Source of the DNA: Streptomyces lydicus
GTDB lineage: Bacteria > Actinomycetota > Actinomycetes > Streptomycetales > Streptomycetaceae
Assembly (NCBI RefSeq): GCF_000717345.1
Contig: NZ_JNZA01000061.1
Location: 1 to 29,737, forward strand
DNA: 29,737 bases
Reading direction: 5' to 3'
Shown: positions 4,694-23,879 of the stretch, piece by piece
Layout of the letters: every line of letters begins with the position of its first letter
Position numbering within the stretch: position 1 is the first letter of the stretch
Notes under the pieces: model-generated
Database searches by the model: none
What the model was told of the DNA's origin: nothing
Seen by the model: the letters and a program-made list of their open reading frames with translations, nothing else
Made by a program: the position numbers and the translations under genes

Positions 4694-5620
4694 GTGTCGA
4701 ACGGCAGTACTTTCCCCCCGCACCGCCGCCTGCGCGGCACCCTGCTCCTCGTCCTGGCGGCCGTGGTGGTCGTGAGCCTGGGGGGCTGGCTGCTCTGGCG
4801 GGCCTGGGGTGACGGCGGCCCGCCGGGGGCCGGGCGGCCCGCGGCGAGCGGGCCGTCGGACGCGGCCTCCGGGGGGCAGTCGGCAGGCGGGAGCGGGTCC
4901 GACGGCAAGAAGGGCGCCGGCTCCGGCGGTACGACGGCTCCGGGCGCCGGCCTCAAGGGCAGGACCGTGCTGATCGACCCGGGACACAATCCGCACAACC
5001 GCGATCACGGCCGGGAGATCGGCCGGCTGGTGGACATCGGCACCGGGCGCAAGGAGTGCGACACCACCGGCACGGCCACCGACGACGGCTACGCCGAGGC
5101 GTCCTTCACCCTGGACGTCGCCCGCCGCGCCCGCACCCTCCTCCAGCGCGAGGGCGCCAAGGTGGTCTTCACCCAGGACGGCGACCGCCCCTACGGGCCG
5201 TGCGTGGACGAGCGGGCGGCCGCCGGGAACAAGGCGCACGCCGATGCCGCGGTCTCGATCCACGCCGACGGCTCGGCGGCCGGCAACCGCGGCTTCCACG
5301 TGATCCTGCCCGCGCGCGTGTCGGCCGGCCCGGCCGACACCGCCGCGATCGTCGGACCCTCGCGGCGGCTGGGCGAGCAACTGGCCGGCCGGTTCGGCGC
5401 GGTAACCGGAAGCAAACCGTCCAATTACATCGGCGGCGGCACCGGACTCGACACCCGCTCCGATCTCGGCGGCCTCAACCTCTCGGACGTACCGAAGGTG
5501 TTCATCGAGTGCGGCAATATGCGCGATCCGAAGGACGCCGCGCAATTGACCGACGCGCGGTGGCGGGAAAAGGCGGCCCGGGGGATCACCGCGGGCATTA
5601 CGGACTTCTTGGCGCACTGA
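4694..5620 (+). CDS. N-acetylmuramoyl-L-alanine amidase (Amidase_3), membrane-anchored
   Basis: A 308-residue cell-wall hydrolase that would cleave the MurNAc-L-alanine bond of peptidoglycan. An N-terminal signal-anchor helix spans about 15-36 and is followed by a Gly/Ser/Ala-rich linker (37-88). The Amidase_3 domain (about 90-308) shows the zinc-ligand pattern His98 (IDPGH), Glu135 and His190 (SIHADG), and the catalytic Glu272 (FIECGN). The GTG start follows a -10 element by 7 nt, and no Shine-Dalgarno sequence is visible. The start gives a normal signal anchor. It acts outside the membrane, most likely in wall turnover, and has no evident link to the neighbouring steroid genes. Confidence 0.9.
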   Translation: MSNGSTFPPHRRLRGTLLLVLAAVVVVSLGGWLLWRAWGDGGPPGAGRPAASGPSDAASGGQSAGGSGSDGKKGAGSGGTTAPGAGLKGRTVLIDPGHNPHNRDHGREIGRLVDIGTGRKECDTTGTATDDGYAEASFTLDVARRARTLLQREGAKVVFTQDGDRPYGPCVDERAAAGNKAHADAAVSIHADGSAAGNRGFHVILPARVSAGPADTAAIVGPSRRLGEQLAGRFGAVTGSKPSNYIGGGTGLDTRSDLGGLNLSDVPKVFIECGNMRDPKDAAQLTDARWREKAARGITAGITDFLAH

Positions 5621-5841
5621 CCGCGCCCCCGCACCGGATCCGATACACCCGCGATACCGCCTCCTGTACACCTCCGGTACCGGTTCTCCTACGGCGCCCG
5701 ATAGCGCGCCGAAACGAACACGACGGCCCGCCGGATTCGGCGATAGGTTCCCCTTTACGATGGGTGGCCACCGCCGTGCCTCGCACCGCGCGCACCGCGA
5801 CAGCGACGACCAGACCCGCGAAAGAGACAAAGGACCCTTAC

Positions 5842-6687
5842 GTGAACATCCGCTCCCTCACTCGAGGCGACGGCGTGGTGATCGGAGCAGCGGTGTTGCT
5901 GTTCATCGCCTCGTTCCTCGACCTCACCGGCGGCCCGGACTGCTCCGGCCCGTACGCCAAGTTCTGCGAAGCCCAGGACTACAGCAGCAGCAACGCCTGG
6001 GACGCGCTGTCCACGCTCATGAGCATGTACCTGGCCGGAGTGATCGGCGCGGCGATCGTCATCATCAGCCGTGCGCTGCCGCAGCCGCGCAAGGTCGCCG
6101 GTCTCGACCTCGGCCAGTTCGGCGTCGCCCTGACCATCTTCGCGGCGTGGACGGCGTTCTGGAGCATCATCGACGCCAACAGCGCGGGCGCGGGCCTGAT
6201 CATCGGTCTGATCGCGGCGCTGATCCTGGCCGCCGGCGCGGTCGCCGGACCGCTGGTCCCGGCACTGCAGCCCGCCCTGATCGGCTCCCCCAAGCCGCAG
6301 GCCGCCCCGTACGGCGCCGGCCCCAACCCGGGTTACGGCTACCCGGGCGCGCAGCAGCAGGCGGGCGGTTACGGCTACCCGGGCGGCCAGCAGCAGCCGC
6401 AGGCCGGTCAGACGCACGGTCAGCAGGTCCCGGCCGAGGCGACGGCGGGCGGCGCGGCGGGTGCCACTCCGGCGGCCGGCACCGCGCCGGAGTTCGCACC
6501 GTTCTGGTTCGCGGTGCCCGTGGCGCGCCCGCTGTACGGCGAGGACGGTTCGCCGTCGCCGATCGCCGAACTGGCGCCCGGCACCTGGTACCTCGCGGTG
6601 GAGCAGCGCGGCCAGGCCCTGATCGCGCAGACCCAGGACGGCCGGCGCGGCGTCCTTCAGGACACCACCGGCATCCAGCGCGGCTGA
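5842..6687 (+). CDS. Four-helix membrane protein with YGYPG/Gln-rich linker (DUF5336-like)
   Basis: A 281-residue protein with four hydrophobic segments at about 11-29, 61-80, 94-112 and 117-141. A Pro/Gly/Gln/Tyr-rich linker follows with repeated YGYPG motifs (about 165-185), then an Ala/Gly-rich spacer and a soluble domain (about 212-281) beginning EFAPFWFAVPVARPLYGEDG. The layout resembles actinobacterial DUF5336 and 34-kDa-antigen-like membrane proteins; that assignment is tentative and the function is unknown. The GTG start is supported by AAAGGA at a spacing of 8 nt. The 221 bp upstream hold no promoter I can defend. A strong stem-loop follows the stop codon, so it is probably monocistronic. 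Confidence 0.75.
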   Translation: MNIRSLTRGDGVVIGAAVLLFIASFLDLTGGPDCSGPYAKFCEAQDYSSSNAWDALSTLMSMYLAGVIGAAIVIISRALPQPRKVAGLDLGQFGVALTIFAAWTAFWSIIDANSAGAGLIIGLIAALILAAGAVAGPLVPALQPALIGSPKPQAAPYGAGPNPGYGYPGAQQQAGGYGYPGGQQQPQAGQTHGQQVPAEATAGGAAGATPAAGTAPEFAPFWFAVPVARPLYGEDGSPSPIAELAPGTWYLAVEQRGQALIAQTQDGRRGVLQDTTGIQRG

Positions 6688-6711
6688 CCCGCACGCCCAG
6701 CGGTCCTTTCC

Positions 6712-6742
6712 CGGCCCCTCGCCCTCCACGGGCGGGGGGCCG
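6712..6742 (+). terminator. Stem-loop terminator after the DUF5336-like gene
   Basis: A 13-bp stem (6712-6724 with 6730-6742, one T-G wobble) encloses a 5-nt loop, 24 bp after the stop codon. There is no long U tract, which is usual for Streptomyces terminators. Confidence 0.75.
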
Positions 6743-6771
6743 TTGCCATGTCCGCGGCCCGGCCGTACAGT
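6743..6771 (+). promoter_or_regulatory. Promoter of the LLM oxidoreductase
   Basis: TTGCCA at 6743-6748 and TACAGT at 6766-6771 are separated by 17 bp, a good sigma-70/HrdB-type pair. Transcription would start near 6778. The CTGAC-N5-GTCAG inverted repeat lies just downstream. Confidence 0.65.
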
Positions 6772-6788
6772 CGCCGCACGCACGGCAT

Positions 6789-6803
6789 CTGACGTTCAGT
6801 CAG
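6789..6803. promoter_or_regulatory. Inverted repeat CTGAC-N5-GTCAG (LLM operator)
   Basis: CTGAC GTTCA GTCAG is a perfect inverted repeat about 10-25 bp after the predicted transcription start, a position where a repressor would block initiation or clearance. It has the same arms and spacing as the element at 3648-3662. Confidence 0.62.
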
Positions 6804-6840
6804 CACACGGTGTGGGCACCGTCCGAGAGGGGCGATCGGC

Positions 6841-7851
6841 ATGCGACTCGGTCTGGCACTGGGCTACTGGGGCCGCGGCCCCGACCCCCGGCACCTCGCT
6901 CTCGCCCGCGAGGCGGAGCGGCTGGGCTACGACTCGGTGTGGACCGCGGAAGCCTGGGGCTCGGACGCGTTCACCGCGCTGACCTGGATCGCCGCCCACA
7001 CCTCCCGTATCCGGCTGGGTACCGGCATCGCGCAGATGGCCGCCCGCACCCCCACCGCCACCGCGATGCACGCCCTCACCCTCGACCATCTCTCCGGTGG
7101 CCGGCTGTTGCTGGGCCTGGGACTGTCCGGGCCGCAGGTCGTCGAGGGGTGGTACGGGCGGCCGTTCCCCAAGAGCCCGCTGACCGCCACCCGCGAATAC
7201 GTGGACACGATCCGTCAGGTCCTGCGCCGCGAGGGCCCGGTGGAGGTGGACGGGCTGTTCCATCCGCTGCCCTACCGCGGCGCGGACGGCACCGGTCTGG
7301 GCAAGGCGCTCAAGCCGATCACCCATCCGCTGCGGGCCGGGATCCCGCTCCTGCTGGGCGCCGAGGGCCCCAGGAACATCGCCCAGACGACCCGGATCGC
7401 GGACGGCTGGCTGCCGCTGTACTGGTCGCCGCAGCGCACCGGCGTCTACCGGGACGCGCTGGCCGACGCCCCGCCGGGCTTTCTGATCGCGCCCATGGCA
7501 CGCGCCGTGGTCTGCAATGACGTCGCCGAAGGGCTGCTGCCGGTCAAGGCGATGCTCGGCTTCTACATCGGCGGGATGGGCGCCGCGGCCAAGAACTTCC
7601 ACGCCGACCTGATGGCGCGGATGGGCTTCGCGGAGGACGCCCGGCGGGTGCAGCGGCTCTTCCTCGAAGGCCGCAGGGAGGAGGCCGTACGCGCCGTGCC
7701 GGACGCCTTCGCCGACGAGATATCCCTGGTCGGGCCACGTGAACGGATCGCCGAGCGGCTGGCGTTGTGGCGTGCGGGCCCGGTCACCGACCTGCTGGTC
7801 ACCGCACCGGACCCGCACACGCTACGGGTGCTGGCCGAGCTGAACTCCTGA
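6841..7851 (+). CDS. LLM-class F420-dependent oxidoreductase
   Basis: A 336-residue luciferase-like (LLM) TIM-barrel protein. The N-terminus MRLGLALGYWG, the segment LGTGIAQMAARTPTATAMHALTLDHLSGGRLLLGLG (about 59-95) and SGPQVVEGWYG just after it are typical of F420-using LLM oxidoreductases. F420 rather than FMN is inferred from family resemblance. The opening and the SGPQV-EGWYG block recall mycobacterial Rv3520c, which as I remember lies in the KstR-controlled region of M. tuberculosis. GAGAGGGG before the ATG gives a good start. The gene has its own promoter with a symmetric operator, and it converges on the next gene with only 14 bp between stop codons. Confidence 0.88.
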   Translation: MRLGLALGYWGRGPDPRHLALAREAERLGYDSVWTAEAWGSDAFTALTWIAAHTSRIRLGTGIAQMAARTPTATAMHALTLDHLSGGRLLLGLGLSGPQVVEGWYGRPFPKSPLTATREYVDTIRQVLRREGPVEVDGLFHPLPYRGADGTGLGKALKPITHPLRAGIPLLLGAEGPRNIAQTTRIADGWLPLYWSPQRTGVYRDALADAPPGFLIAPMARAVVCNDVAEGLLPVKAMLGFYIGGMGAAAKNFHADLMARMGFAEDARRVQRLFLEGRREEAVRAVPDAFADEISLVGPRERIAERLALWRAGPVTDLLVTAPDPHTLRVLAELNS

Positions 7852-7853
7852 CC

Positions 7854-7865
7854 GCGGCCGGCCGC
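7854..7865. repeat. 12-bp perfect palindrome between convergent stops
   Basis: GCGGCCGGCCGC fills almost the whole gap between the LLM stop (7849-7851) and the stop of the opposing gene (7866-7868). It could act as a very short bidirectional hairpin, but it is small and may be chance in such GC-rich DNA. Confidence 0.4.
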
Positions 7866-8669
7866 TCACCCGAACGACGCCCACGCCAGCCACCGGTCGA
7901 GCAGCGCCCGCTCGCCCAGCACCTCGACCCGGTCGCTGTCGGCGGGCAGCCGGCGGTAGACGACGCGGAGCACGTCACTGAGCGGGCCGCGCAGCGCGAC
8001 CGCCGCCTTCTCGTGGGTGCGCCGGTGGGTGGGCGCCTCCCCCGTGAGGTCGAGGAGCCACTCGGCGGTCAGTCCGGGCGGGGCGTCGGTGGCGTGGACG
8101 TGCAGCGTACGGCCCGGACCGAAGAGTTCCGTGCCGCGTCCGGTGAAGCGTTCCGCGACCACCGGCAGCTCGCAGATCTGCAGCCACTCCTCCAGGCAGT
8201 CCGCGGCGACCGGCGCCGGCACGTCGAAGGCGGCGCCCGCGGTGAGCGCGGCGTCGGCCCGGTGGATCACCGTCTCGTGCGTCATCCGGCGGGCCCAGAA
8301 GCCGGCCCGCTGCACCGGCGACCAGGACCACACCTCGGCGTCCGGGCCGGCCTCCCGCAGCGCCGCCACGGTCCGCTCGGCGCCCTCCGCCAGCCAGGCG
8401 TCCAGCGCCGCCGCGTCCTCGCCCGCGGGCCCGTCGCCCTCCGGGATGTCCGCGTCGTCGACGTTCTTCGTCGCGCGGCGGGCGACGAGGGTGCCGGCCC
8501 AGCGGTGCGCGCCCCCCACGTGCCGGGCGAGGTCGGCCAGCGTCCAGTCGGGGCAGGTCGGCACGGTCACCGAGAGATCGGCGTGCCGCACGATCTCGCG
8601 GAACGCGTCGGTCTCGGCGAGGAGTTGGGCGCAGTATTCCTCGTGGGTCAGGGAGCCTTGGAGTGTCAT
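7866..8669 (-). CDS. Maleylpyruvate isomerase / DinB-fold family protein
   Basis: A 267-residue protein of the mycothiol-dependent maleylpyruvate isomerase superfamily. The N-terminal four-helix metal-binding domain has CPDWTLADLARHVGGAHRW (39-57) with candidate ligand His50, and RMTHETVIHRADA (128-140) with His131, Glu132 and His136. A smaller C-terminal domain follows (about 170-267). Most members in Streptomyces have no assigned substrate and may use mycothiol. ATG 8669 is preferred over GTG 8678 because a TACTGT -10 lies exactly 7 nt before it and no Shine-Dalgarno sequence exists, which suggests a leaderless mRNA. It follows the toroid gene on the same strand but appears to have its own promoter. 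Confidence 0.82.
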   Translation of the reverse strand: MTLQGSLTHEEYCAQLLAETDAFREIVRHADLSVTVPTCPDWTLADLARHVGGAHRWAGTLVARRATKNVDDADIPEGDGPAGEDAAALDAWLAEGAERTVAALREAGPDAEVWSWSPVQRAGFWARRMTHETVIHRADAALTAGAAFDVPAPVAADCLEEWLQICELPVVAERFTGRGTELFGPGRTLHVHATDAPPGLTAEWLLDLTGEAPTHRRTHEKAAVALRGPLSDVLRVVYRRLPADSDRVEVLGERALLDRWLAWASFG

Positions 8670-8670
8670 G

Positions 8671-8690
8671 CGGCGCACAGTAGTGCGCCG
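8671..8690. promoter_or_regulatory. 8-bp-arm inverted repeat over the -10 of the DinB-fold gene
   Basis: CGGCGCAC-AGTA-GTGCGCCG is a perfect inverted repeat with 8-bp arms and a 4-bp spacer. It begins two bases upstream of the ATG. The -10 element (TACTGT, 8682-8677 on the minus strand) lies within it. It could be an operator or a hairpin terminator of the upstream operon; the overlap with the -10 favours an operator. Confidence 0.55.
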
Positions 8691-8725
8691 CCCCCCGCCC
8701 GGCGCCGCATTTTCCGGCGGTGTCC

Positions 8726-9808
8726 CTACGGGCCGGTCCGCCCGCAGCAGTCCGGGTCCAGGCCCGCCGGCAGCTGCTCCCCGCCGAAGACCGTGGTGGT
8801 GGCCTCGTCACCGCCGACGGCCGCGACCGCGAGCAGCAGCGAGCCGGCCGTCCAGGAGGTCAGTTCGCGGGGCCAGATCGCGTCGTCGTCGAAGACGTAG
8901 CCGGTCCAGTACATGCCGTCCTCGGCGCGGAGGTGCTGCATCCACTTGAGGATCTGCACGGCCCGCTCGGACTCGCCGGTCGCCCACAGGGCGAGGGCCA
9001 GCTCCGCGCTCTCGCCGCCGGTGACCCAGGGGTTGGGCAGCACGCAGCGCACGCCGAGCCCGGGCACCACGAACTGTTCCCATGCGGCGTCGATGCGCTC
9101 CCGCGCCGCCGCACCGCGTACGGCGCCGCCCAGGATCGGGTAGTACCAGTCCATGGAGTAGCGGGCCTTGTCCAGGAACCGTTCGGGGTGGCTGCGTATC
9201 GCGTGGCCGAGACGGCCGACCGCGAGTTCCCAGTCGGGCTGCGGCTCCTCGCGCTGTTCGGCGAGCGCGAGCGCGCAGCGCAGCGCCTGGTAGACGGAGG
9301 AGGAGCCGGTCAGCAGCGCGTCGTTGACGGGGGTCCCGTCGTCCTCGCGCTTCCAGCCGATCTCACCGCCGGGCTGCTGGAGCTCCAGTACGAACTCGAT
9401 CGCCGAGTACACCGCGGGCCACATGCGGTCGAGGAAGGTCTCGTCGCCGGTGGACAGGAAGTGGTGCCAGACGCCGACCGCGATGTAGGCGCAGAAGTTG
9501 GTCTCCCGGCCGCGGTCGGTGGGTACCTCGGCGTCGCCGTCGGCGTAGGCCGCGTACCAGGACCCGTCCGGGTTCTGATGGCGTACCAGCCAGTCGTACG
9601 CGGCCTCGGCGCGCTCGTGTTCGCCGGCCGCGTCCAGGGCCATGGCGGCCTCGGTGTGGTCCCACGGGTCGAGGTGGTGGCCGCGGAACCAGGGGATGGC
9701 GCCGTCCTCGCGCTGGGTCGCCAGGATGCCGGCGACCGTACGGGCTGCCTGTTCGGCGGTGAGCACCCCCGGCAGGACGAGCCGTTCGGTACGTCCGGGA
9801 CTCGTCAC
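8726..9808 (-). CDS. Alpha/alpha-toroid protein (prenyltransferase/glycosidase-like fold)
   Basis: A 360-residue protein rich in paired helices, with recurring motifs such as HQNPDGSWYAAY (77-88) and SVYQALRCALALAE. Acidic and aromatic residues (DPWDHTEAAMALDAAGEHERA, NPWVTGGESAELALALWATGE) would line an alpha/alpha barrel. Similar proteins are often named prenyltransferase because of the fold. No DDxxD-like prenyl diphosphate site or DxDD cyclase motif is visible, so a glycoside-processing or binding role is equally possible. The GTG start overlaps the methyltransferase stop (GTGA), so translation is coupled. It is the last gene of a glycosyltransferase, methyltransferase and toroid operon whose promoter carries a KstR box. 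Confidence 0.75.
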   Translation of the reverse strand: MTSPGRTERLVLPGVLTAEQAARTVAGILATQREDGAIPWFRGHHLDPWDHTEAAMALDAAGEHERAEAAYDWLVRHQNPDGSWYAAYADGDAEVPTDRGRETNFCAYIAVGVWHHFLSTGDETFLDRMWPAVYSAIEFVLELQQPGGEIGWKREDDGTPVNDALLTGSSSVYQALRCALALAEQREEPQPDWELAVGRLGHAIRSHPERFLDKARYSMDWYYPILGGAVRGAAARERIDAAWEQFVVPGLGVRCVLPNPWVTGGESAELALALWATGESERAVQILKWMQHLRAEDGMYWTGYVFDDDAIWPRELTSWTAGSLLLAVAAVGGDEATTTVFGGEQLPAGLDPDCCGRTGP

Positions 9809-14965: not shown

Positions 14966-15058
14966 GAGCGGGTGTGGGGGCGGGTTCCCGGAGGCAGGGC
15001 GGGAGGCGTCCGCAGGGTGTTTCCGCAGTGGGTGTGTCCGCACCGAGAGGGGACCGGG

Positions 15059-16192
15059 ATGACCACGCAGGTGACCGACCACCGAGGCGGCGTCTGGAGC
15101 ATCGCCGTCCCCATCCCGGACAACCCGCTGGGCCACACCCTGGTCCACCTCCTGGAGACCGACCGCGGGCCGGTGCTCATCGACACCGGCTGGGACGACC
15201 CGGACTCCTGGGACACCCTGGTCGCCGGCGTCGCCGCCTGCGGCTTCGACGTCGCCGACCTCCACGGCGTCCTGGTCACCCATCACCATCCGGACCACCA
15301 CGGGCTCTCCGCCAAGGTGCGGGAGGCGTCCGGCGCGTGGATCGCGATGCACGCCGCGGACGCGGCCGTGGTCCGCCGCACCCGTGAGGCGGAACCGGGC
15401 CGATGGCTCGACTACCTGCTCGCCAAGCTGACGGCGGCGGGCGCACCGGAGGACCATCTGACGCCGCTGCGCGAGGCGCGTGCGGGAGGACGCGGCCGGC
15501 GGCTGCCCGGGCGGCGGGCCGCGCTGCCGGACCGCGGGATCGAACCCGGCGAGCTGCTCGACCTGCCGGGGCGCCGGCTCCGCGCCATCTGGACGCCGGG
15601 CCACACGCCGGGGCACGTGTGTCTGCATCTGGAGGAGCGGCATCCGGTACTGGAGCCGGCGCGGCCGGCAGCGGCGGAGGCGGGCGCGGCGGGTCCGGGG
15701 GCGGGCCGTGGGGCGATTGGCGGAACGGCCGGTGGCGGAACGGCCAGCGGTCGGGGCCGGCTCTTCTCCGGTGATCACCTGCTTCCCGGCATCACCCCGC
15801 ACATCGGTTTGTACGAGGACCCGGACGACGAGAGGGAGGCCACCGACCCGTTGGGCGACTACCTCGACTCCCTGGAACGTGTCGGCCGGCTCGCCCCCGC
15901 CGAGGTCCTGCCGGCCCATCAGCACGCCTTCACCGATGCCGAGGGCCGGGTCGGCGAGCTCATCGCTCACCATGAAGAGCGGCTCTCCGGATTGCGAGCA
16001 CTGCTCCGCGAACCCCGCACGCCCTGGCAGCTCGCCGTGGCCATGGAGTGGAACCGCCCGTGGGACCGGATCCCCTACGGCTCCCGGAACATCGCCGTAT
16101 CGGAGGCCGAGGCACATCTGCGGCGCCTGGTGAAGCTGGGGCACGCGGAGCGGGTACCGGGGTCCGACCCGGCGACGTACCGGGCGGTGTGA
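15059..16192 (+). CDS. MBL-fold metallo-hydrolase
   Basis: A 377-residue metallo-beta-lactamase-fold hydrolase. The binuclear metal site is seen as THHHPDHHG (74-82; His75, His77, Asp79, His80), TPGHTPGH (179-186), the bridging Asp of SGDHLLPG (237-244) and a late LPAHQHAF. The C-terminal part (about 290-377) is helical and looks like the winged-helix tail of the LACTB2/glyoxalase-II-like group. Residues about 198-234 are a low-complexity Ala/Gly insertion. The ATG follows GAGAGGGG. Such enzymes hydrolyse thioesters, lactones or other esters; hydrolysis of a CoA thioester or steroid lactone would suit the KstR box upstream, but this is inference. Confidence 0.88.
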   Translation: MTTQVTDHRGGVWSIAVPIPDNPLGHTLVHLLETDRGPVLIDTGWDDPDSWDTLVAGVAACGFDVADLHGVLVTHHHPDHHGLSAKVREASGAWIAMHAADAAVVRRTREAEPGRWLDYLLAKLTAAGAPEDHLTPLREARAGGRGRRLPGRRAALPDRGIEPGELLDLPGRRLRAIWTPGHTPGHVCLHLEERHPVLEPARPAAAEAGAAGPGAGRGAIGGTAGGGTASGRGRLFSGDHLLPGITPHIGLYEDPDDEREATDPLGDYLDSLERVGRLAPAEVLPAHQHAFTDAEGRVGELIAHHEERLSGLRALLREPRTPWQLAVAMEWNRPWDRIPYGSRNIAVSEAEAHLRRLVKLGHAERVPGSDPATYRAV

Positions 16193-16349: not shown

Positions 16350-16530
16350 GTGCGGGACAACTTCATCCGTACCTGATCGGGGGAAGCCGGTGGAAATCCG
16401 GCGCTGCCCCTCCCCCAAGCTCTCGGCTTCGCTCGAGCTCGGGGGCACCCCATCCGTGAGGGCGGCCGCCCGCGCACCGCGCGCCCGGCCGTACGAGCCG
16501 GAGCACCCGATGGGGCACGACCAAGGCTCG
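16350..16530 (+). promoter_or_regulatory. Cobalamin riboswitch
   Basis: The conserved cobalamin aptamer core is visible at about 16380-16410: GGGGGAAGCCGGTGGAAATC followed by CGGCGCTGCCCC. The downstream B12-box-like segment AGCCGGAGCACCCG lies at 16496-16509. Adenosylcobalamin binding would reduce expression of the downstream genes. The usual CCCGCAACTGT-type stretch after the core is not seen; a hairpin repeat sits there instead. The ends are approximate. The long region to the first start at 16700 presumably holds the expression platform. Confidence 0.85.
16412..16445 (+). repeat. Streptomyces intergenic hairpin repeat inside the riboswitch
   Basis: A hairpin with CCCCC and AGCTC in the left arm and GAGCT and GGGGG in the right arm, loop rich in CGGCTTCG. 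This CCCCCAAGCTCTCGGCTTCG-type element is, from memory, one of the most frequent small repeats in Streptomyces intergenic DNA. Here it falls between the aptamer core and the B12 box. Confidence 0.75.
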
Positions 16531-16699
16531 CGCCACCGGAACCGCCGCCTGTACGGACGGACCGGTGCGCGGCACCGTCGAGGTATGCGGAGCCGAGCCC
16601 GGTGCCCGCGCGGCGCCCGATCGCAGGATCGGCGTGCGGCGGTCGGCCGAGCGCGGCTGCGCACCACCGCCGCGACCCGACCCGAGAGGCACCGACCCG
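16531..16699 (+). other. Leader between aptamer and first B12-operon gene
   Basis: GC-rich untranslated leader. It contains several complementary GC segments (for example CACCGGAACC with GGACCGGTG) that could form alternative hairpins with the aptamer, as an expression platform needs. GAGAGG at 16684-16689 is the ribosome site for the ATG at 16700. Confidence 0.45.
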
Positions 16700-18043
16700 A
16701 TGGCCCCCATGGCCCCCCTGGCTCCCATGGCTCAGCAGGCCCCTTCGACGCACCCCGTCGCCTTCCTGGCGCGCCGCGCCGCCATGGCGCTGGCGGCCGC
16801 GGCGGTGCTGGGCGGGGCCGCCGCTCCGGCCGCGTACGCGGTGGACGGTGCCGATGGCGCGCCCGCCGCCGGCTCCCCCAAGAAGCTGCCCGAGGGGCTG
16901 TACGGCACCAAGGACCCGCAGTACGACGGCGTCTGGCGGCAGTCGCTCGCGCTGCTGGCGCAGCACACGGTGGGCGTGCGGCCCGCGACGTCGGCCGTGC
17001 GGTGGCTGGTCGGGCAGCAGTGCGCGGACGGCGCGTTCACCGCCTTCCGGGCCGAGCCGGGCAAGCCCTGCGACGCCAAGACCATGCGGGACACCAACCA
17101 GACGGCCGCCGCGGTGCAGGCGCTGGCCGCGCTCGGCGGCCACGACGAGACCGTGCAGAAGGCCGTGAACTGGCTGAAGTCGGTACAGAACGACGACGGT
17201 GGCTGGAGCTCGATGGCCGGCTCGCCCAGCGACGCCAACTCCACCTCGGTGGTCGTCGGCGCCCTCGCGGCGGCCGGTGCGAAGCCGGAGTCGGTCACGT
17301 CGAAGAAGGGCGGCAGGACCCCGTACGACGGGCTGCTCACCTTCCGGCTGGGCTGTGACGTCAAGGAGGGCGAGCGCGGGGCCTTCACCTTCCAGCTCAA
17401 GGGCGCGGCCGCGAACGCGGACGCCACCGCGGCGGCCGCGACCGGAGCACTCGGCAAGGGCTTCGTCGTCGCCCCGGCGGGCGGTGCCGCCGACACCCCG
17501 GTCAAGCCGCTGAGCTGCAAGGACGGCAAGGCGGACGGCAAGTCGGGCGACAAGGGTCCGGCGGCGGCCGAGGGCGGCGCCGGCTACCTCGTCGCGCAGC
17601 TCGACAAGAACGGGCACCACCTGCTCTCCGCGATGCCGGGCCAGGAGAAGCAGCCGGACGTCGGCAACACCGCCGACGCCGTGGTGGCGCTGGCGGCCGG
17701 CGGCCACCGCTCCGCCGCGCAGCAGCCGCTGAAGTGGCTGGAGAAGAACGCGGCGGCCTGGGCCCGGCAGAACGGCCCGGCCGCCTACGCCCAGCTGGTG
17801 CTCGCCGCGCACGCCACCGGCACCGACCCGCGGTCCTTCGGCGGCACCGACCTGGTGACCGCGCTCAACGCCACCGGTCCCGAGCCGGCCGGCACCACCC
17901 CCGGCAAGGACGCCCGGGCCGCCGACGCCGCCAAGGACTCCGACGGCGGCGTCAACGTCTGGTGGGTCGTCGGCGTCGGGCTCGCCGTCGGCGCCGGCAT
18001 CGGCTTCCTGCTGAGCGGCCGCCGGAAGAAGAACGACCTCTGA
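16700..18043 (+). CDS. Surface-anchored alpha/alpha-toroid protein, transcobalamin-like
   Basis: A 447-residue secreted protein. The signal peptide is about 1-47 (hydrophobic core after ARRAAMALAAAAVLGG, cut near AYA). The body has prenyltransferase/squalene-cyclase-type repeats: VRWLVGQQCADGAF, DTNQTAAAVQALAALGG, NWLKSVQNDDGGW, DANSTSVVVGALAAAG and a second set after a Lys/Gly-rich break (about 275-290). One C-terminal helix (about 418-437) ends in RRKKNDL, so the protein stays on the outer face of the membrane. Eukaryotic intrinsic factor and transcobalamin bind B12 in the same alpha6/alpha6 fold. With a cobalamin riboswitch upstream and an ECF transporter downstream, a B12-capture role is likely. 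ATG 16700 has GAGAGG 10 nt upstream; ATG 16709 and 16727 are possible. Confidence 0.85.
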   Translation: MAPMAPLAPMAQQAPSTHPVAFLARRAAMALAAAAVLGGAAAPAAYAVDGADGAPAAGSPKKLPEGLYGTKDPQYDGVWRQSLALLAQHTVGVRPATSAVRWLVGQQCADGAFTAFRAEPGKPCDAKTMRDTNQTAAAVQALAALGGHDETVQKAVNWLKSVQNDDGGWSSMAGSPSDANSTSVVVGALAAAGAKPESVTSKKGGRTPYDGLLTFRLGCDVKEGERGAFTFQLKGAAANADATAAAATGALGKGFVVAPAGGAADTPVKPLSCKDGKADGKSGDKGPAAAEGGAGYLVAQLDKNGHHLLSAMPGQEKQPDVGNTADAVVALAAGGHRSAAQQPLKWLEKNAAAWARQNGPAAYAQLVLAAHATGTDPRSFGGTDLVTALNATGPEPAGTTPGKDARAADAAKDSDGGVNVWWVVGVGLAVGAGIGFLLSGRRKKNDL

Positions 18044-18756
18044 TGCGGCTGTTGCGGCGGATGCGGCTGATGCGGCGAACCAGGGCCGCCGGCGCGCTGC
18101 TGCTGGCCGGCGCGGTCACCGTGCTGGCGGCGGCCGGGCCGGCCCAGGCGCAGGAGTACCGCTACTGGGCCTTCTGGGACGGTGCGGACCGTGGCTCCTG
18201 GACGTACGCCACCCAGGGGCCCGCCACCGTACGGCCGGCCGACGGCGCGGTGGAGGGCTTCCGGTTCACGGTCAGCGCGGACTCCGCCGCGGCCGGCCGA
18301 CCGCGCGCGGCCGCCGACTTCGACGCCCTCTGCCGTGCCACGCCGGCCAAGGACGGCCGCAAGCGGATCGGCATCGTCATCGACTTCGGCACCGCGGCGG
18401 ACGCGCCCGGCGGCGCGCGGCCGCCGGCGGCGCGGACCGCGTGCGCCCAGGTGCCCGAGGACGCCTCGGCGGGCGAGGCGCTGGCCGCGGTCGCCCGGCC
18501 GCTGCGCTACGACTCCAACGCGCTGCTGTGCGCCATCGCCGGCTATCCGACGTCGGGTTGTGCGGACCAGGTCAGCGGCGCGGACGGGGCGAAGGGCGCG
18601 CCGAAGGGTGCGGACGGATCGACGGCTGTGGGCGGGTCGAAGGGGGCCGGTGACGGTGGCGACGGCGGGCCGTCCGCGGGGCTGCTCGGCGGTGTCGCGG
18701 CCGTCGTCGTACTGGGTGGGGCGGCTGTCTGGCAGGCACGCCGCCGGCGCGGATGA
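18043..18756 (+). CDS. SCO2322-family secreted, membrane-anchored protein
   Basis: A 237-residue protein with a signal peptide (about 1-36, ending AQA), a compact domain starting EYRYWAFWDGADRGSWTYA, with GPATVRPADGAVEGFRF following, and a C-terminal anchor helix (about 212-230) ending in ARRRRG. It carries four or more cysteines in the mature domain (ALC, TACAQ, ALLCA, GCADQ), which may form disulfides. The family is known by its S. coelicolor member and is found with ECF genes. Its start overlaps the previous stop by one base (TGATG), and its stop overlaps the next start (ATGA). It is a plausible second part of a B12-binding unit, functionally like the small beta domain of transcobalamin; this is inference. 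Confidence 0.8.
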   Translation: MRLLRRMRLMRRTRAAGALLLAGAVTVLAAAGPAQAQEYRYWAFWDGADRGSWTYATQGPATVRPADGAVEGFRFTVSADSAAAGRPRAAADFDALCRATPAKDGRKRIGIVIDFGTAADAPGGARPPAARTACAQVPEDASAGEALAAVARPLRYDSNALLCAIAGYPTSGCADQVSGADGAKGAPKGADGSTAVGGSKGAGDGGDGGPSAGLLGGVAAVVVLGGAAVWQARRRRG

Positions 18757-19985
18757 GCGCCCCGCAGGCGACCCGTACCACCGCGCTGCACGCCGGCGCC
18801 TGGTGGCTGTGGGCGCTCGGCCTGGCCACCGCGGCCTCCCGCACCACCAACCCGCTGCTGCTGGGGCTGCTGGTGGGGGTGGCCGGCTATGTCGTCGCCG
18901 CCCGCCGCACGGACGCGCCCTGGGCCCGCTCGTACGGGGCGTTCGTCAAGGTCGGCCTGGTCGTGCTCGGCATCCGGCTGGTCTTCGCGTTCTTCCTCGG
19001 CTCCCCCATCCCTGGCACGCACACGCTGCTCACGCTGCCCGAAGTGCCGCTGCCGGACTGGGCGCAGGGCGTCCGGATCGGCGGCCGGGTCACGGCCGAG
19101 GGCATGGTCTTCGCGCTCTACGACGGACTGAAGCTGGCTGCCCTGCTCATCTGCGTCGGCGCCGCCAACGCCCTCGCCAACCCCTCCCGCCTGCTGAAAT
19201 CCCTGCCCGGCGCGCTCTATGAGGCGGGCGTGGCGGTCGTCGTCGCCATGACCTTCGCACCGAACCTGATCGCCGACGTGCAGCGGCTGCGCGCCGCCCG
19301 CCGGCTGCGCGGCCGTCCCGACCGCGGTGTCACGGCGCTCCTCCAGGTCGGTCTGCCGGTGCTGGAGGGCGCCCTGGAACGGTCGGTGGCGCTGGCCGCG
19401 GCCATGGACGCGCGCGGCTACGGCCGCAGCGCGCAGGTGCCGCGCGCCGTACGGCACACCACGTCCGTCCTCACCCTCGGCGGGCTGCTCGGCATCTGCG
19501 CGGGCACGTACGGCCTCCTCGGCGACACCGGGGCCGGCTACGGTCTGCCGCTGCTGCTGGCCGGTCTGACCGCGGCACTGGCCGGGCTCCGGCTCGGCGG
19601 CCGCCGCTCGCTGCGCACCCGTTACCGCCCCGAACGCTGGGGCGTCCGGGCCTGGCTGGTCTCCGGCTCCGGCGTCGCCGTGGCGGTCCTGATGATCTGG
19701 GCCAACGGCTACGCCCCGGCCGCCCTGCACCCGCCGGCCGTCCCGCTCACCACGCCGGTGCTGCCGCTCTGGCCGGCCGTGTCCGTCCTGCTCGGGCTGC
19801 TGCCCGCGCTCGTCGCGCCGGTACCGCGCGCCCCGGAACGTCCGCGGCGCGCCGAACGCGCGCCCTCCGGAACCCGCGCCGTACGCAACGGGCGTGACGA
19901 CGGCGACGACCGCCTGCGTGGCGCCGGCGGCCACCCGGGCGGCGGCCCGCACTCCCCTCAGCACACGAAGGAGCCGACTCCGTGA
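18753..19985 (+). CDS. ECF transporter transmembrane component (EcfT/CbiQ family)
   Basis: A 410-residue membrane protein, the T component that couples ATP hydrolysis to the substrate-binding S subunit. It has hydrophobic helices in the first 130 residues and again from about 230 to 360. The cytoplasmic coupling helices carry the Ala-Arg-Gly signatures RAARRLRGRPDRG (about 178-192) and MDARGYGRS (about 217-225). A hydrophilic tail of roughly 50 residues (rich in Arg, Gly and His) is longer than in typical EcfT. Its start overlaps the previous stop (ATGA), and its stop overlaps the ABC gene start (GTGA). The cobalamin substrate is predicted from the riboswitch. From memory, actinobacterial relatives have been called CbrV. 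Confidence 0.9.
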   Translation: MSAPQATRTTALHAGAWWLWALGLATAASRTTNPLLLGLLVGVAGYVVAARRTDAPWARSYGAFVKVGLVVLGIRLVFAFFLGSPIPGTHTLLTLPEVPLPDWAQGVRIGGRVTAEGMVFALYDGLKLAALLICVGAANALANPSRLLKSLPGALYEAGVAVVVAMTFAPNLIADVQRLRAARRLRGRPDRGVTALLQVGLPVLEGALERSVALAAAMDARGYGRSAQVPRAVRHTTSVLTLGGLLGICAGTYGLLGDTGAGYGLPLLLAGLTAALAGLRLGGRRSLRTRYRPERWGVRAWLVSGSGVAVAVLMIWANGYAPAALHPPAVPLTTPVLPLWPAVSVLLGLLPALVAPVPRAPERPRRAERAPSGTRAVRNGRDDGDDRLRGAGGHPGGGPHSPQHTKEPTP

Positions 19986-21619
19986 TCCGGTTCGAGCAGG
20001 TCTCGGTCACCTACGGCGACGCCGCGGCGCCCGCCGTCCGGGGCATCGACCTGACCGTCCCCGAGGGCGAACTGTGCCTCCTGGTCGGCCCCTCCGGCGT
20101 GGGCAAGTCCACCGTGCTGAACGCCGTCTGCGGACTCGTCCCGCACTTCACCGGCGGCACCCTGCACGGCCGCGTCACCGTCGACGGCCGCGACACCCGC
20201 ACCCACAGGCCACGCGAACTCGCCGATGTCGTCGGCACCGTGGGCCAGGACCCGCTGGCCCACTTCGTCACCGACACCGTCGAGGACGAACTCGCCTACG
20301 GCATGGAATCGCTCGGCCTCGCCCCCGACGTGATGCGCCGCCGCGTCGAGGAGACCCTGGACCTGCTCGGCCTGGCCGGTCTGCGGGACCGCGCCCTCAC
20401 CACGCTGTCCGGGGGCCAGAGGCAGCGGGTGGCGATCGGCTCGGTCCTCACCACCCACCCCAAGGTCCTGGTGCTCGACGAGCCCACCTCGGCCCTCGAC
20501 CCGGCCGCCGCCGAAGAGGTGCTCTCCGTACTCCAGCGGCTGGTCCATGACCTCGGCACCACGGTCCTCCTGGCCGAACACCGCCTGGAGCGCGTCATCC
20601 AGTACGCCGACCAGGTCATCCTGCTCCCCGCACCGGGGGCGCCGCCGGTCATGGGCAGCCCCTCCGAGATCATGGCGATCTCCCCCGTCCACCCCCCGGT
20701 CGTGGCCCTGGGCCGGCTCGCGCAGTGGTCCCCGCTCCCCCTCACCGTCCGCGACGCCCGCCGCCGGGCCGCTCCCCTGCGGGACCGCCTCAGGGACCGC
20801 ACCCCGCCGACCGCCGGGCGGCCGGCGCCGGGCCCCGGACCGGAAGCGGACCGGAACGGACCCGCCGCCGAGGTCCGCGGGCTCGGTGTCCGCCGGGGGC
20901 CGACCGACGCCTTGTACCGGGTGGACCTGACCGTCCGGGCCGGTGAGACCGTCGCGCTGATGGGACGCAACGGCGCGGGCAAGTCCACGCTGCTCAACAC
21001 CCTCGTGGGGGTCCACCAGCCGTCCTCCGGAACGGTCCGGGTCGCCGGTGCCGTCCCGCACCGCACCGCACCGCGCGCCCTGCTGCGGCACGTCGGCCTG
21101 GTGCCCCAGGAACCGCGCGACCTCCTCTACGCGGACACCGTCGCCGCCGAGTGCGCCGCCGCGGACCAGGACGCGGACGCCCCGGCCGGCAGCTGCCGGG
21201 TCCTGGTGTCCCGGCTGCTGCCCGACGTCCCGGACTCCGTCCACCCCCGTGATCTCTCCGAGGGCCAACGTCTCGCGCTCGCCCTCGCGCTCGTGCTCAC
21301 CGCGCGTCCCGGGCTGCTGCTGCTCGACGAGCCCACCCGCGGCCTGGACTACGCCGCCAAGGCCCGCCTGGTCGAGGTGGTGCGGGCGCTGGCCGCCGAG
21401 GGGCACGCCATCGTCCTTGCCACCCACGACGTGGAACTCGCCGCCGAACTGGCGCACCGCGTGGTGATCCTCGCCGACGGTGAGGTCGTCGCCGACGGCC
21501 CCACCGACGACATCGTGGTGTCCTCGCCCTCCTTCGCGCCGCAGGTCGCCAAGGTGCTCGCCCCGCTGCCCTGGCTGACCGTGCCGCAGGTGGCCCGCGC
21601 GCTGGAGGCCACCGCATGA
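19982..21619 (+). CDS. ECF transporter ATP-binding protein, two fused ABC domains
   Basis: A 545-residue protein joining both ATPases of an ECF transporter. Domain 1 has Walker A GPSGVGKST (36-44), Q-loop VGQDP, signature LSGGQRQRVAIG (about 141-152) and Walker B VLVLDEPTSALD. Domain 2 has Walker A GRNGAGKST (about 328-336), Q-loop VPQEPRDLLY, a less usual signature LSEGQRLALALAL (about 425) and Walker B LLLLDEPTRGLD. A Pro/Arg-rich linker of about 60 residues (around 245-300) separates them. The GTG start overlaps the EcfT stop, and the stop overlaps the S-component start, so all subunits are made together. From memory, comparable fused A subunits were named CbrU. Confidence 0.93.
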   Translation: MIRFEQVSVTYGDAAAPAVRGIDLTVPEGELCLLVGPSGVGKSTVLNAVCGLVPHFTGGTLHGRVTVDGRDTRTHRPRELADVVGTVGQDPLAHFVTDTVEDELAYGMESLGLAPDVMRRRVEETLDLLGLAGLRDRALTTLSGGQRQRVAIGSVLTTHPKVLVLDEPTSALDPAAAEEVLSVLQRLVHDLGTTVLLAEHRLERVIQYADQVILLPAPGAPPVMGSPSEIMAISPVHPPVVALGRLAQWSPLPLTVRDARRRAAPLRDRLRDRTPPTAGRPAPGPGPEADRNGPAAEVRGLGVRRGPTDALYRVDLTVRAGETVALMGRNGAGKSTLLNTLVGVHQPSSGTVRVAGAVPHRTAPRALLRHVGLVPQEPRDLLYADTVAAECAAADQDADAPAGSCRVLVSRLLPDVPDSVHPRDLSEGQRLALALALVLTARPGLLLLDEPTRGLDYAAKARLVEVVRALAAEGHAIVLATHDVELAAELAHRVVILADGEVVADGPTDDIVVSSPSFAPQVAKVLAPLPWLTVPQVARALEATA

Positions 21620-22494
21620 CCCCGCGCCCGCAGCGCCCCGGCCGTACGGTCCGGGCCGTGCGGCTCGGGCCGCGCTCCGTCGCCGCGCTGGTCCTGATCT
21701 CGGCCATCGGCGTGATGGCGTTCGGCTGGCCGCTGCTCGCCGACTCGGCGTCCGGGCTCGCCCATTCCAAGGACGCGCCCTGGCTGTTCGCCGCGCTGCT
21801 GCCGATGCTGCTGGCCGTCGTGGTGGCGACCATCGCCGACACCGGCCTGGACGCCAAGGCCCTCGCCATGCTCGGTGTGCTGGCCGCTGCCGGCGCCGCG
21901 TTGCGCCCGCTGGGCGCGGGGACGGCCGGCATCGAGCCGATGTTCTTCCTGATGGTGCTGGCGGGGCGGGTGCTCGGGCCCGGTTTCGGCTTCGTGCTGG
22001 GTTCGGTGGCGATGTTCGCGTCGGCGCTGCTGACCGGCGGCGTCGGCCCCTGGATGCCGTTCCAGATGCTGACCATGGGGTGGGTGTCGATGGGCGCCGG
22101 GCTGCTGCCGGGCCCCGACCGGCTGCGGGGGCGCCGCGAGGTGGTCATGCTCGCCGGCTACGGCGCCGTCTCCGCCGTCCTCTACGGCCTGGTCATGAAC
22201 CTCCAGGGCTGGCCGTACATCGCCGGTCTGGCCTCGGGGGTCTCCTTCGTGCCCGGCGACCCCGTCGACCAGAACCTCGCCCGTTACGTCGCCTACTGTC
22301 TCGCCACCTCCCTCGGCTGGGACCTGCCCCGCGCGCTGGTGACCGTGGTCCTCACCTGCACGCTGGGCAGTACCGTCCTGGCGGCCCTGCGGCGCGCCAC
22401 CCGCCGCGCCGCCTTCGACGTGCCGGTGTCCTTCGCCTCCGCCGGGCCGGCTGCTTCCACCACGGCGCCGGCCGGCGGGTGCCGTTCGGAATGA
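21616..22494 (+). CDS. ECF transporter S component (predicted cobalamin-specific, CbrT-like)
   Basis: A 292-residue integral membrane protein with about six or seven hydrophobic segments: SVAALVLISAIGVMAFGW, the helix after DAPWLFAALLP, and segments around LDAKALAMLGVLAAAGA, EPMFFLMVLAGRVLG, FGFVLGSVAMFASALL, VVMLAGYGAVSAVLYGLV and LPRALVTVVLTCTL. The PMFFLMVLAGRVLGPGFGFVLG region resembles S components that bind vitamins. It gives the transporter its specificity. Cobalamin is inferred from the riboswitch, and the predicted CbrT family is the best fit I know. The C-terminal 35 residues are cytoplasmic and low-complexity. The stop is only one base from the stop of the opposing gene. Confidence 0.87.
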   Translation: MTPRPQRPGRTVRAVRLGPRSVAALVLISAIGVMAFGWPLLADSASGLAHSKDAPWLFAALLPMLLAVVVATIADTGLDAKALAMLGVLAAAGAALRPLGAGTAGIEPMFFLMVLAGRVLGPGFGFVLGSVAMFASALLTGGVGPWMPFQMLTMGWVSMGAGLLPGPDRLRGRREVVMLAGYGAVSAVLYGLVMNLQGWPYIAGLASGVSFVPGDPVDQNLARYVAYCLATSLGWDLPRALVTVVLTCTLGSTVLAALRRATRRAAFDVPVSFASAGPAASTTAPAGGCRSE

Positions 22495-22495
22495 C

Positions 22496-23803
22496 TCAGC
22501 GGATCCGGGGCAGGTCGCGGGCGAGGGACGGCTGGGAGCGCCGGAAAGAGGTGAAGTGGTCGGCGTCGGCACCCTGGTCGACCACCGTGGGCCGGGCGCC
22601 GTGGGCCCGCAACTCCTTGGCGCAGCTGATGCTGTTGGCCATGGGGACGTCGTGGTCGCCGCCGGCGGTGTAGAGGGTGATCCGGACGCCGCGGGCCGGC
22701 GTCCAGTCGCAGGTGCGGTCGTTGGCCCGCAGGACGGTCAGCAGGGCGCCGGACGGGTGCCGGAGCTTCTGGTACCAGGTGTCGGTGAGCAGGTCCTCCA
22801 GTCGGCCGGGCAGCTTGCCGGCGATCTTCTCCGCCGGGTGCTCGCCGTCGAAGAGGGCCTCGACGCGGTCGGCGTAGGGGGCGCGGAACACCTCGCGGGG
22901 GCTGCGGTAGAGCGGGTGCAGACGGTTCTGGGCAGTCAGGAAGAAGGAGACGTAGAAGACGGCTGAGCGGGGGCTGACCCGGCCGTCGAACATCCCGGGG
23001 AGTTCGCTGCCGTCCAGGTCGAACGGGCCGCCGACCGGCGCGACGGTCCCGGGGCGGAAACGGGGATCGGCACCCCGGCCCAGCTCGCGCGCCAGTTCCA
23101 TGGCGACCTGGCCGCCCTGCGAGAAGCCGGTGAGGGACACCCTGCGGTCCAGGGTTGCGCCGAGCCGGGAGGTGGCCGTGCGGGCCGCCCGGAGCATGTC
23201 GAGCGAGGCCGAGCCGGCGGACCGTGCGTCCATGTACGGGTGGCGGCCGGGGCCGGTGCCGAGGCCGAGGTAGTCGGGGGCGACGGCGGCGCGGCCGGCC
23301 GAGGCGTACAGCATCGAGACGGTCCGGTCGAGGCCGTCGCCGACGGAGGGTGCGTAGCCGCGGTAGGCGAGGGTGCCGTGGGCGTGCACGACGGCGGGGA
23401 GCCGGTGCCGGCCGGTGCCGAGCGGGAGGGAGAGCAGGCCGGAGGCGGTGGTGGGACGGCCGTCGGCGGTGATCGTGCGGTAGGTCAGGCGGTAGTTGGC
23501 GACGTCGTGGCGGGCGGTGTGGGCGTCCAGGCCGGTCTGCCGCGCCTGGTCCACGATCCGGGATCGGTGCTGCCGGCCGAGGGGGATGAGGGAGAGCAGG
23601 CTGCCGCGCCAGGCGGCGGTGCGGGCTGCGGTTCCCTGTGCCGTGGCGGGCCGTGCCGTCTCCGCCTGCCGGGCGGGGAGGGGATGCGCGGCCGCCACGG
23701 CCGGTGCCGTCGTGAGCGCCGTCAGCAGGAGGGCGGCGCCGGTGGCCACCCCGCGCGAGAGGCGGCGGGACCGCGGTAAGTGCTGCTGGGTCGTGTTCTT
23801 CAT
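22496..23803 (-). CDS. Secreted lipase-like alpha/beta hydrolase
   Basis: A 435-residue exported hydrolase with a signal peptide (about 1-39: RSRRLSRG, hydrophobic core, cut after AVAAA). The alpha/beta-hydrolase core shows the oxyanion segment HAHGT (140-144), the nucleophile Ser228 in GFSQGG, an acid in GGDHDVP (381-387) and His416 in DADHFTSF. It fits the secretory-lipase family, which hydrolyses triglycerides and other esters. ATG 23803 has no Shine-Dalgarno sequence but follows TACCGT by 6 nt, as in leaderless genes, and gives a normal signal peptide. It converges with the B12 operon, one base apart. Steryl-ester cleavage is possible given the neighbours but is not shown. Confidence 0.85.
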   Translation of the reverse strand: MKNTTQQHLPRSRRLSRGVATGAALLLTALTTAPAVAAAHPLPARQAETARPATAQGTAARTAAWRGSLLSLIPLGRQHRSRIVDQARQTGLDAHTARHDVANYRLTYRTITADGRPTTASGLLSLPLGTGRHRLPAVVHAHGTLAYRGYAPSVGDGLDRTVSMLYASAGRAAVAPDYLGLGTGPGRHPYMDARSAGSASLDMLRAARTATSRLGATLDRRVSLTGFSQGGQVAMELARELGRGADPRFRPGTVAPVGGPFDLDGSELPGMFDGRVSPRSAVFYVSFFLTAQNRLHPLYRSPREVFRAPYADRVEALFDGEHPAEKIAGKLPGRLEDLLTDTWYQKLRHPSGALLTVLRANDRTCDWTPARGVRITLYTAGGDHDVPMANSISCAKELRAHGARPTVVDQGADADHFTSFRRSQPSLARDLPRIR

Positions 23804-23879
23804 GGTGCGACGGTACGGACGTCCCGCGGCGCACAGCAGGCGTTTTCCGCACAACTCAACCGGGGTGCACGACGGTTGA

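Follow-up and report, generated by a model that had tools for sequence, protein, structure and literature searches.

A riboswitch-linked operon of Streptomyces lydicus with a putative two-chain, circularly permuted transcobalamin-type carrier and an ECF transporter

Known B12 carriers and the operon of Streptomyces lydicus

In the animal carriers transcobalamin and intrinsic factor, an alpha/alpha toroid and an SLBB beta-grasp domain jointly sandwich vitamin B12 (PMC1796856). Bacterial transcobalamin-type SLBB domains were described by Burroughs and Aravind in 2007 as commonly fused to toroids, many of them secreted or anchored, and as generally sharing an operon with CbiO-like and CbiQ-like genes; scavenging of B12 or a precursor was proposed as their role (PMC1796856). 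B12 can also be taken up by an energy-coupling factor (ECF) transporter, ECF-CbrT of Lactobacillus delbrueckii, in which the S component itself binds the substrate (PMC5997447). Here we describe an operon of five genes, g1 to g5, in a stretch of 29,737 nucleotides from Streptomyces lydicus (contig NZ_JNZA01000061.1; the window). As judged from its sequence, the operon probably serves corrinoid uptake, its first two products being proposed as permuted alpha- and beta-like halves of a two-chain carrier that would load an ECF transporter. Its features are:

16357 to 16531, forward strand: cobalamin-class riboswitch aptamer, interrupted (lineage model R1, 36.5 bits, E 2.1e-9)
16411 to 16451, forward strand: 41-nucleotide palindromic dispersed repeat inside a hairpin loop of the aptamer (core 16414 to 16438; insert letters compared over 13 loci)
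16700 to 18043, forward strand: g1, anchored alpha/alpha toroid of the SCO2321 family, proposed alpha-like half (NF053823)
18043 to 18756, forward strand: g2, anchored protein of the SCO2322 family with a putative rotated SLBB domain of transcobalamin type, proposed as beta-like half (NF040672, rotation test, AlphaFold2)
18753 to 19985, forward strand: g3, CbiQ-like ECF T component (PF02361, 27.9 bits, cut-off 25)
19982 to 21619, forward strand: g4, ECF ATPase with two ATP-binding cassette (ABC) domains in one chain (PF00005, two stretches)
21616 to 22494, forward strand: g5, ECF S component (PF12822, 36.2 bits, cut-off 30.7)

The five genes (16700 to 22494) are a real start-stop-coupled operon with overlaps at all four junctions (TGATG at 18041 to 18045, ATGA at 18753, GTGA at 19982, ATGA at 21616). 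An anchored toroid, an anchored SCO2322-family protein and a full ECF transporter with start-stop coupling had been named in the initial annotation, and NCBIfam and Pfam matches together with the junction letters bear all of this out, only that the span had been given as 16350 to 22494 and the coding part begins at 16700. The toroid g1 is a member of the NCBIfam family SCO2321_fam (NF053823, 588.1 bits at a cut-off of 300), its best homologue among the matches listed is 97% identical, and models of squalene-cyclase/prenyltransferase toroids match it as well, so that g1 has the alpha/alpha toroid domain that also characterizes transcobalamin and intrinsic factor. g2 belongs to SCO2322_fam (NF040672, 217.2 bits, cut-off 85), contains a GPS-CTERM segment (35 bits, cut-off 28) and has at least 120 homologues among the matches listed, under the newer accession PF28005. 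In both proteins the N terminus is hydrophobic and a single further hydrophobic segment lies at the C-terminal end; both also have conserved cysteines, as would fit secreted domains. T component, ATPases and S component all lie in this one operon (PF02361, PF00005 twice, PF12822), making up a dedicated ECF module, and g5 is the sole PF12822 match of its genome.

NF053823 lies above cut-off in 27 of 296 genomes of the class, all 27 from the genus of the window, where 27 of the 28 genomes listed have it. A scan of genome contigs gave 287 relatives, of which the best 80 were retained; these are labelled Candidatus Nanopelagicales, other Actinomycetes metagenome-assembled genomes (MAGs), an Acidothermaceae MAG, a Frankiaceae MAG, Peterkaempfera, Streptomyces and others, some labels (Bifidobacterium breve, Rubrivirga, Acidobacteria) being apparently misassigned. 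In 64 of the 66 loci with at least 900 nucleotides downstream of g1 (loci are numbered with L and genomes with G), g2 comes next, and in L183 it lies slightly further away, just beyond the 900-nucleotide limit, the g1 match having perhaps ended early. The full order from g1 to g5 is kept in 49 of 52 loci with a flank of 5 kb; the other three are L152, L166 and L179.

Like the SLBB-toroid proteins described in 2007, the proteins of this operon combine an anchored surface toroid and an SLBB-type domain with CbiO/CbiQ-like operon genes, but each half is a chain of its own here, and each is circularly permuted; for that clade the text names low-GC Gram-positives and archaea, and Streptomyces and permutation have 0 occurrences each in it (PMC1796856). 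Transcobalamin and intrinsic factor are one soluble chain in canonical order, whereas here there are two anchored chains, rotated, for which binding is predicted. ECF-CbrT is likewise an ECF-type importer, with B12 as its substrate and likely also the substrate here, but CbrT shares its ECF module with other S components, whereas the module here is dedicated and preceded by two surface proteins (PMC5997447). Surface-exposed capture of B12, as proposed here, is also done by the BtuG-type lipoproteins of gut Bacteroides (PMC6143338). BtuG, in contrast to the proteins of this operon, works in an outer-membrane setting. The fold of the BtuG-type lipoproteins differs from those of g1 and g2. While the idea of B12 capture is not new (2007), the split, doubly rotated form appears undescribed in the open-licence PubMed Central literature, where searches for SCO2321-2325, for SLBB, transcobalamin and ECF, and for circular permutation with transcobalamin showed no description of such a system among the papers listed.

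Rotation of the toroid and the SLBB domain

In distant cassettes there are proteins with the two sequence blocks of g2 in opposite order, which, by reading, is the order of DUF4430. Compared with 17 such canonical-order SLBB proteins, the g2 profile (from set A2 of 66 sequences, used instead of set A, in which 6 of 49 proteins were lost to the extraction pattern) scores 81.1 over 43 columns in its native order and 143.2 over 100 columns (E 1.7e-25) when rotated, with at most 20.2 in 60 column shuffles and 11.6 for the reversed alignment. Against DUF4430 domains from 27 loci (30 minus L086, L101 and L104, for which the extraction was empty), the rotated profile scores 38.3 over 74 columns, with at most 17.5 in 60 shuffles, which establishes profile homology. 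Independently of the rotation test, positions 8-56 of the NCBIfam SCO2322 model match residues 243-292 of the L057 protein, the later part of its domain. These comparisons support that g2 is an SLBB-type domain in circularly permuted rather than canonical strand order. Circular permutation has been described for the E1/UFD family of the beta-grasp fold in a 2007 review (PMC1949818). An AlphaFold2 model of g2 with 65 relatives has a predicted local distance difference test score of 92.0 and a predicted template modelling score of 0.88, and it shows a helix followed by short strands. In the alignment of relatives, the tryptophans W7 and W18 are invariant and W10 nearly so; lying in the block that matches the later SLBB strands, all three are candidate corrin contacts. 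A DUF4430 profile of 8 sequences matched 3u7z in the PDB at E 3.5e-5 and not transcobalamin; published work is therefore the basis for linking DUF4430 to transcobalamin (PMC1796856, PMC4350170).

Also the toroid g1 is circularly rotated relative to its canonical relatives: against eight type II toroids, its native order gives a score of 213 across 178 columns, and a cut near residue 198-216 raises this to 304 across 298 columns, with at most 18.1 in 30 shuffles. The rotations of g1 and g2 go together. By best model, 112 of the 130 neighbouring pairs are rotated in both proteins, 17 are canonical in both and one is mixed (L056), although the pairs are not independent, since several genomes occur twice in the set (e.g. 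L054/L128), and rotation may go back to a single event. The type I toroid model hits the L056 toroid in two pieces whose order is swapped, and a rotation scan has its maximum at the rotated cut (361.7 versus 276.1 natively), which means that its toroid is canonical in order, so that there are 18 canonical/canonical pairs and no truly mixed one. The L056 cassette (5331-8764, genome G010), nearer to type I in sequence and with both proteins in canonical order, is possibly an intermediate in the rotation. Rotated and canonical-order cassettes occur side by side in three genomes of the genus, G089 (L076, L108), G234 (L033, L109) and G285 (L075, L110). Small secreted-looking DUF4430 proteins are encoded in L108 (7870-8634), L109 (9003-9530) and L112 (8598-9287), in the first two of these loci after the canonical-order cassette and a toroid gene.

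While in the window toroid and SLBB domain are on separate genes, the one-chain arrangement of transcobalamin and intrinsic factor is found in L113 (5736-9419, minus strand, G154), where a single open frame of 1228 codons from stop to stop holds both domains, with a signal-like segment, an SLBB domain at 79-220 (108.6 bits), a toroid at 389-752 (481.6 bits), a second toroid match at 845-1107 (85.4 bits) and, by eye, a C-terminal hydrophobic segment. This frame has an aptamer ahead of it and a separate gene for an SLBB protein as well as ECF genes behind it, and it is the only SLBB-toroid fusion frame among the loci examined for fusions. That the two anchored proteins could be alpha- and beta-like halves coupled to the ECF transporter, as the initial annotation proposed, gains support from the toroid matches, the profile comparison of g2 after rotation, the coupled rotation of the toroid and the fusion; in particular the beta-like identity of the SCO2322 protein, at first a guess, is now supported because of the profile comparison and because L113 carries both domains.

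The aptamer and its palindromic insert

The cobalamin riboswitch that had been placed ahead of the operon is recovered as an aptamer of its lineage, whereas its Rfam match stays below threshold: at gathering score Rfam has no match on the window, RF00174 reaching 17.1 bits at a cut-off of 31.5, and an insert interrupts the aptamer. A lineage model was therefore built from aptamers of relatives (R1, 33 aptamers, that of the window left out), and it gives the match listed above. R1 finds an aptamer ahead of g1 in 95 of 100 loci searched (E up to 0.0012), 33 of the 100 matching by construction; the five without one are L071 (E 0.1), L196, L200, L159 and L179, the sequence of the last two starting only 203 and 2 nucleotides before the g1 match. 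Of 16 Streptomyces loci, 13 have a cobalamin-class match in Rfam when E values up to 1 are allowed, and 6 of the 16 reach a gathering score; among distant loci 5 of 9 and 8 of 10 do so. The canonical-order cassettes likewise carry an aptamer.

The insert lies in a hairpin loop that we take to be P6. Its core is found at 4 further places of the same genome at up to 2 mismatches, and the repeat is of low copy number: when up to 3 mismatches are allowed, it occurs 0 to 15 times per genome in 21 genomes of the genus (present in 11 of the 21; none for the reversed control). A pattern spanning the junction, at up to 3 mismatches, matches in 31 of 199 genomes of the genus, but its reversed control matches in 11 of 199, which is why only hits ahead of SCO2321 were counted: SCO2321 lies beside the hit in 12 of the 30 loci taken up (window included), and all 12 have the insert at the same site. 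L063, L077 and L189 also carry an insert in the aptamer, and the carriers besides the window are these three and L208, L211, L215, L216, L220, L224, L226, L227, L234, L235 and L236, which belong to several Streptomyces lineages. In a g1 tree with 47 rows, five changes are needed to account for the 12 that are labelled as insert carriers, all five forced by supported branches, so the site has been hit, cleaned or exchanged repeatedly; the aptamer labels of the tree are imperfect, since L070, L197, L199 and L202 are labelled none or other in spite of 72-80 bits, and L063 and L236 have inserts and are not labelled as such. Upstream of SCO2321 in L224 and L234, by eye, the aptamer lacks its 3' half after the palindrome and the start codon follows closely. 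In the window, with its aptamer interrupted, the B12 response may have been lost, yet the reading frames of g1 to g5 remain open.

The operon neighbours are ordinary, a metallo-beta-lactamase-fold protein (15056-16189, forward strand) and a secretory lipase-like protein (22499-23854, reverse strand).

Probable corrinoid uptake and the alternatives

The operon probably takes up B12 or a related corrinoid. The toroid g1 would be the cavity and the SLBB strands of g2 the lid, both membrane-anchored on the outer face; the two would most likely sandwich one corrinoid and hand it over to the S component g5, which would work with the CbiQ/CbiO module of g3 and g4 at the expense of ATP. Expression would be, or would have been, controlled by B12 through the aptamer. 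The analysis shows the genes and their order, their linkage to a riboswitch across families, the toroid fold, the SLBB homology after rotation, the coupled rotation and the one fusion; corrinoid binding, the pairing of g1 and g2, the hand-over and the direction of transport are inferred. For the more specific version, that the halves of a two-chain transcobalamin, permuted together in one actinobacterial lineage, clamp B12 and load the ECF S component, the chances appear evenly balanced.

Several observations weigh against corrinoid capture by g1 and g2. The native g2 has no Pfam match, with DUF4430 (PF14478) absent at E up to 0.1 and up to 1, and Pfam DUF4430 is silent also on the swapped g2, for which reason the profile-profile comparison was used. 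In that comparison the native g2, with 37.1, scores nearly the same against the 27 DUF4430 domains as the rotated one, with 38.3, but over 39 rather than 74 columns, so that the kinship holds either way and the rotation doubles the aligned length. Foldseek and VIA searches with the g2 model gave no relative, which is expected for a permuted fold, yet proves nothing. With g1, VIA lists terpene cyclases, sugar epimerases and other toroids, and transcobalamin and intrinsic factor are not among the 50 matches listed (a pre-ranked list); toroids serve many enzymes. A role as class II terpene cyclase, for which the DxDD motif is the mark, was set aside for g1, the motif being present in 1 of 58 sequences. 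g5 could not be tied to CbrT, neither g5 nor its alignment giving a useful sequence match in the PDB. In L179 neither g2 nor ECF genes are found within 6 kb. The supposition of the initial annotation that solute capture by anchored proteins is unusual for ECF systems is weakened, as B12 scavenging by toroid and SLBB proteins with CbiO/CbiQ genes had already been proposed (PMC1796856).

It is rather unlikely that the ECF module and g5 import the corrinoid alone, while g1 and g2 are a surface reservoir or a receptor with another partner. This would agree with L152 and L166, which retain g1 and g2 behind an aptamer and have no ECF genes within 6 kb, a finding that also counts against capture by g1 and g2 for the transporter, and with the S component being the substrate-binding protein in ECF-CbrT (PMC5997447), but the start-stop coupling of five genes and their shared order in the 49 of 52 loci favour one machine. 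The chance is about as small, perhaps a shade smaller, that g1 and g2 bind a corrinoid precursor, a corrinoid-bound molecule or some other ligand, B12 serving just as the regulatory signal. RF00174 matches the genome itself seven times at E up to 0.001, five times above cut-off and never at the operon of g1 to g5. By eye, these seven precede genes resembling metE, cobD, cobN and those for a nickel/cobalt permease, a permease of the BtuC kind, a transporter of cobalt and a ribonucleotide reductase. The organism probably makes B12 and has another importer, the BtuC-like permease seen by eye, which counts against uptake of B12 by the operon and for another ligand; in such an organism the cassette may be of use for salvage when levels are very low, or for a different corrinoid. 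Another ligand would be consistent also with the g2 alignments, in which, by our reading, a conserved aromatic residue of the transcobalamin-type SLBB insert that is described as central for B12 binding (PMC1949818) is not evident. On the other hand, toroid and SLBB domain are the very combination of the known B12 carriers (PMC1796856), and the aptamer link holds across families. By far the least probable is that the operon encodes a CbiMNQO-type transporter for cobalt, to which the surface proteins are unrelated: the module is of CbiQ/CbiO type, and other metal-transporter-like genes of the genome appear, by eye, behind B12 aptamers, but among 27 relatives of g5, PF12822 is found in 20 and the riboflavin S family in 5, and no metal S-component family at E up to 0.01. 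ECF systems for metals that include toroid and SLBB proteins are not known to us.

If corrinoid capture by g1 and g2 is true, two Streptomyces families of unknown function would gain a testable role, and bacterial B12 capture would be tied to the animal carrier, here broken into two chains, so that the workings of the sandwich could be taken apart one half at a time. Some ECF transporters would then use external capture proteins and not the S component alone, and a coupled circular permutation of two interacting proteins would be notable in itself. The cassette is found in Streptomyces and in many freshwater bacteria, probably for B12 uptake; many of its carriers are by label freshwater Nanopelagicales, a group discussed as relying on its neighbours for B vitamins (PMC7527133).

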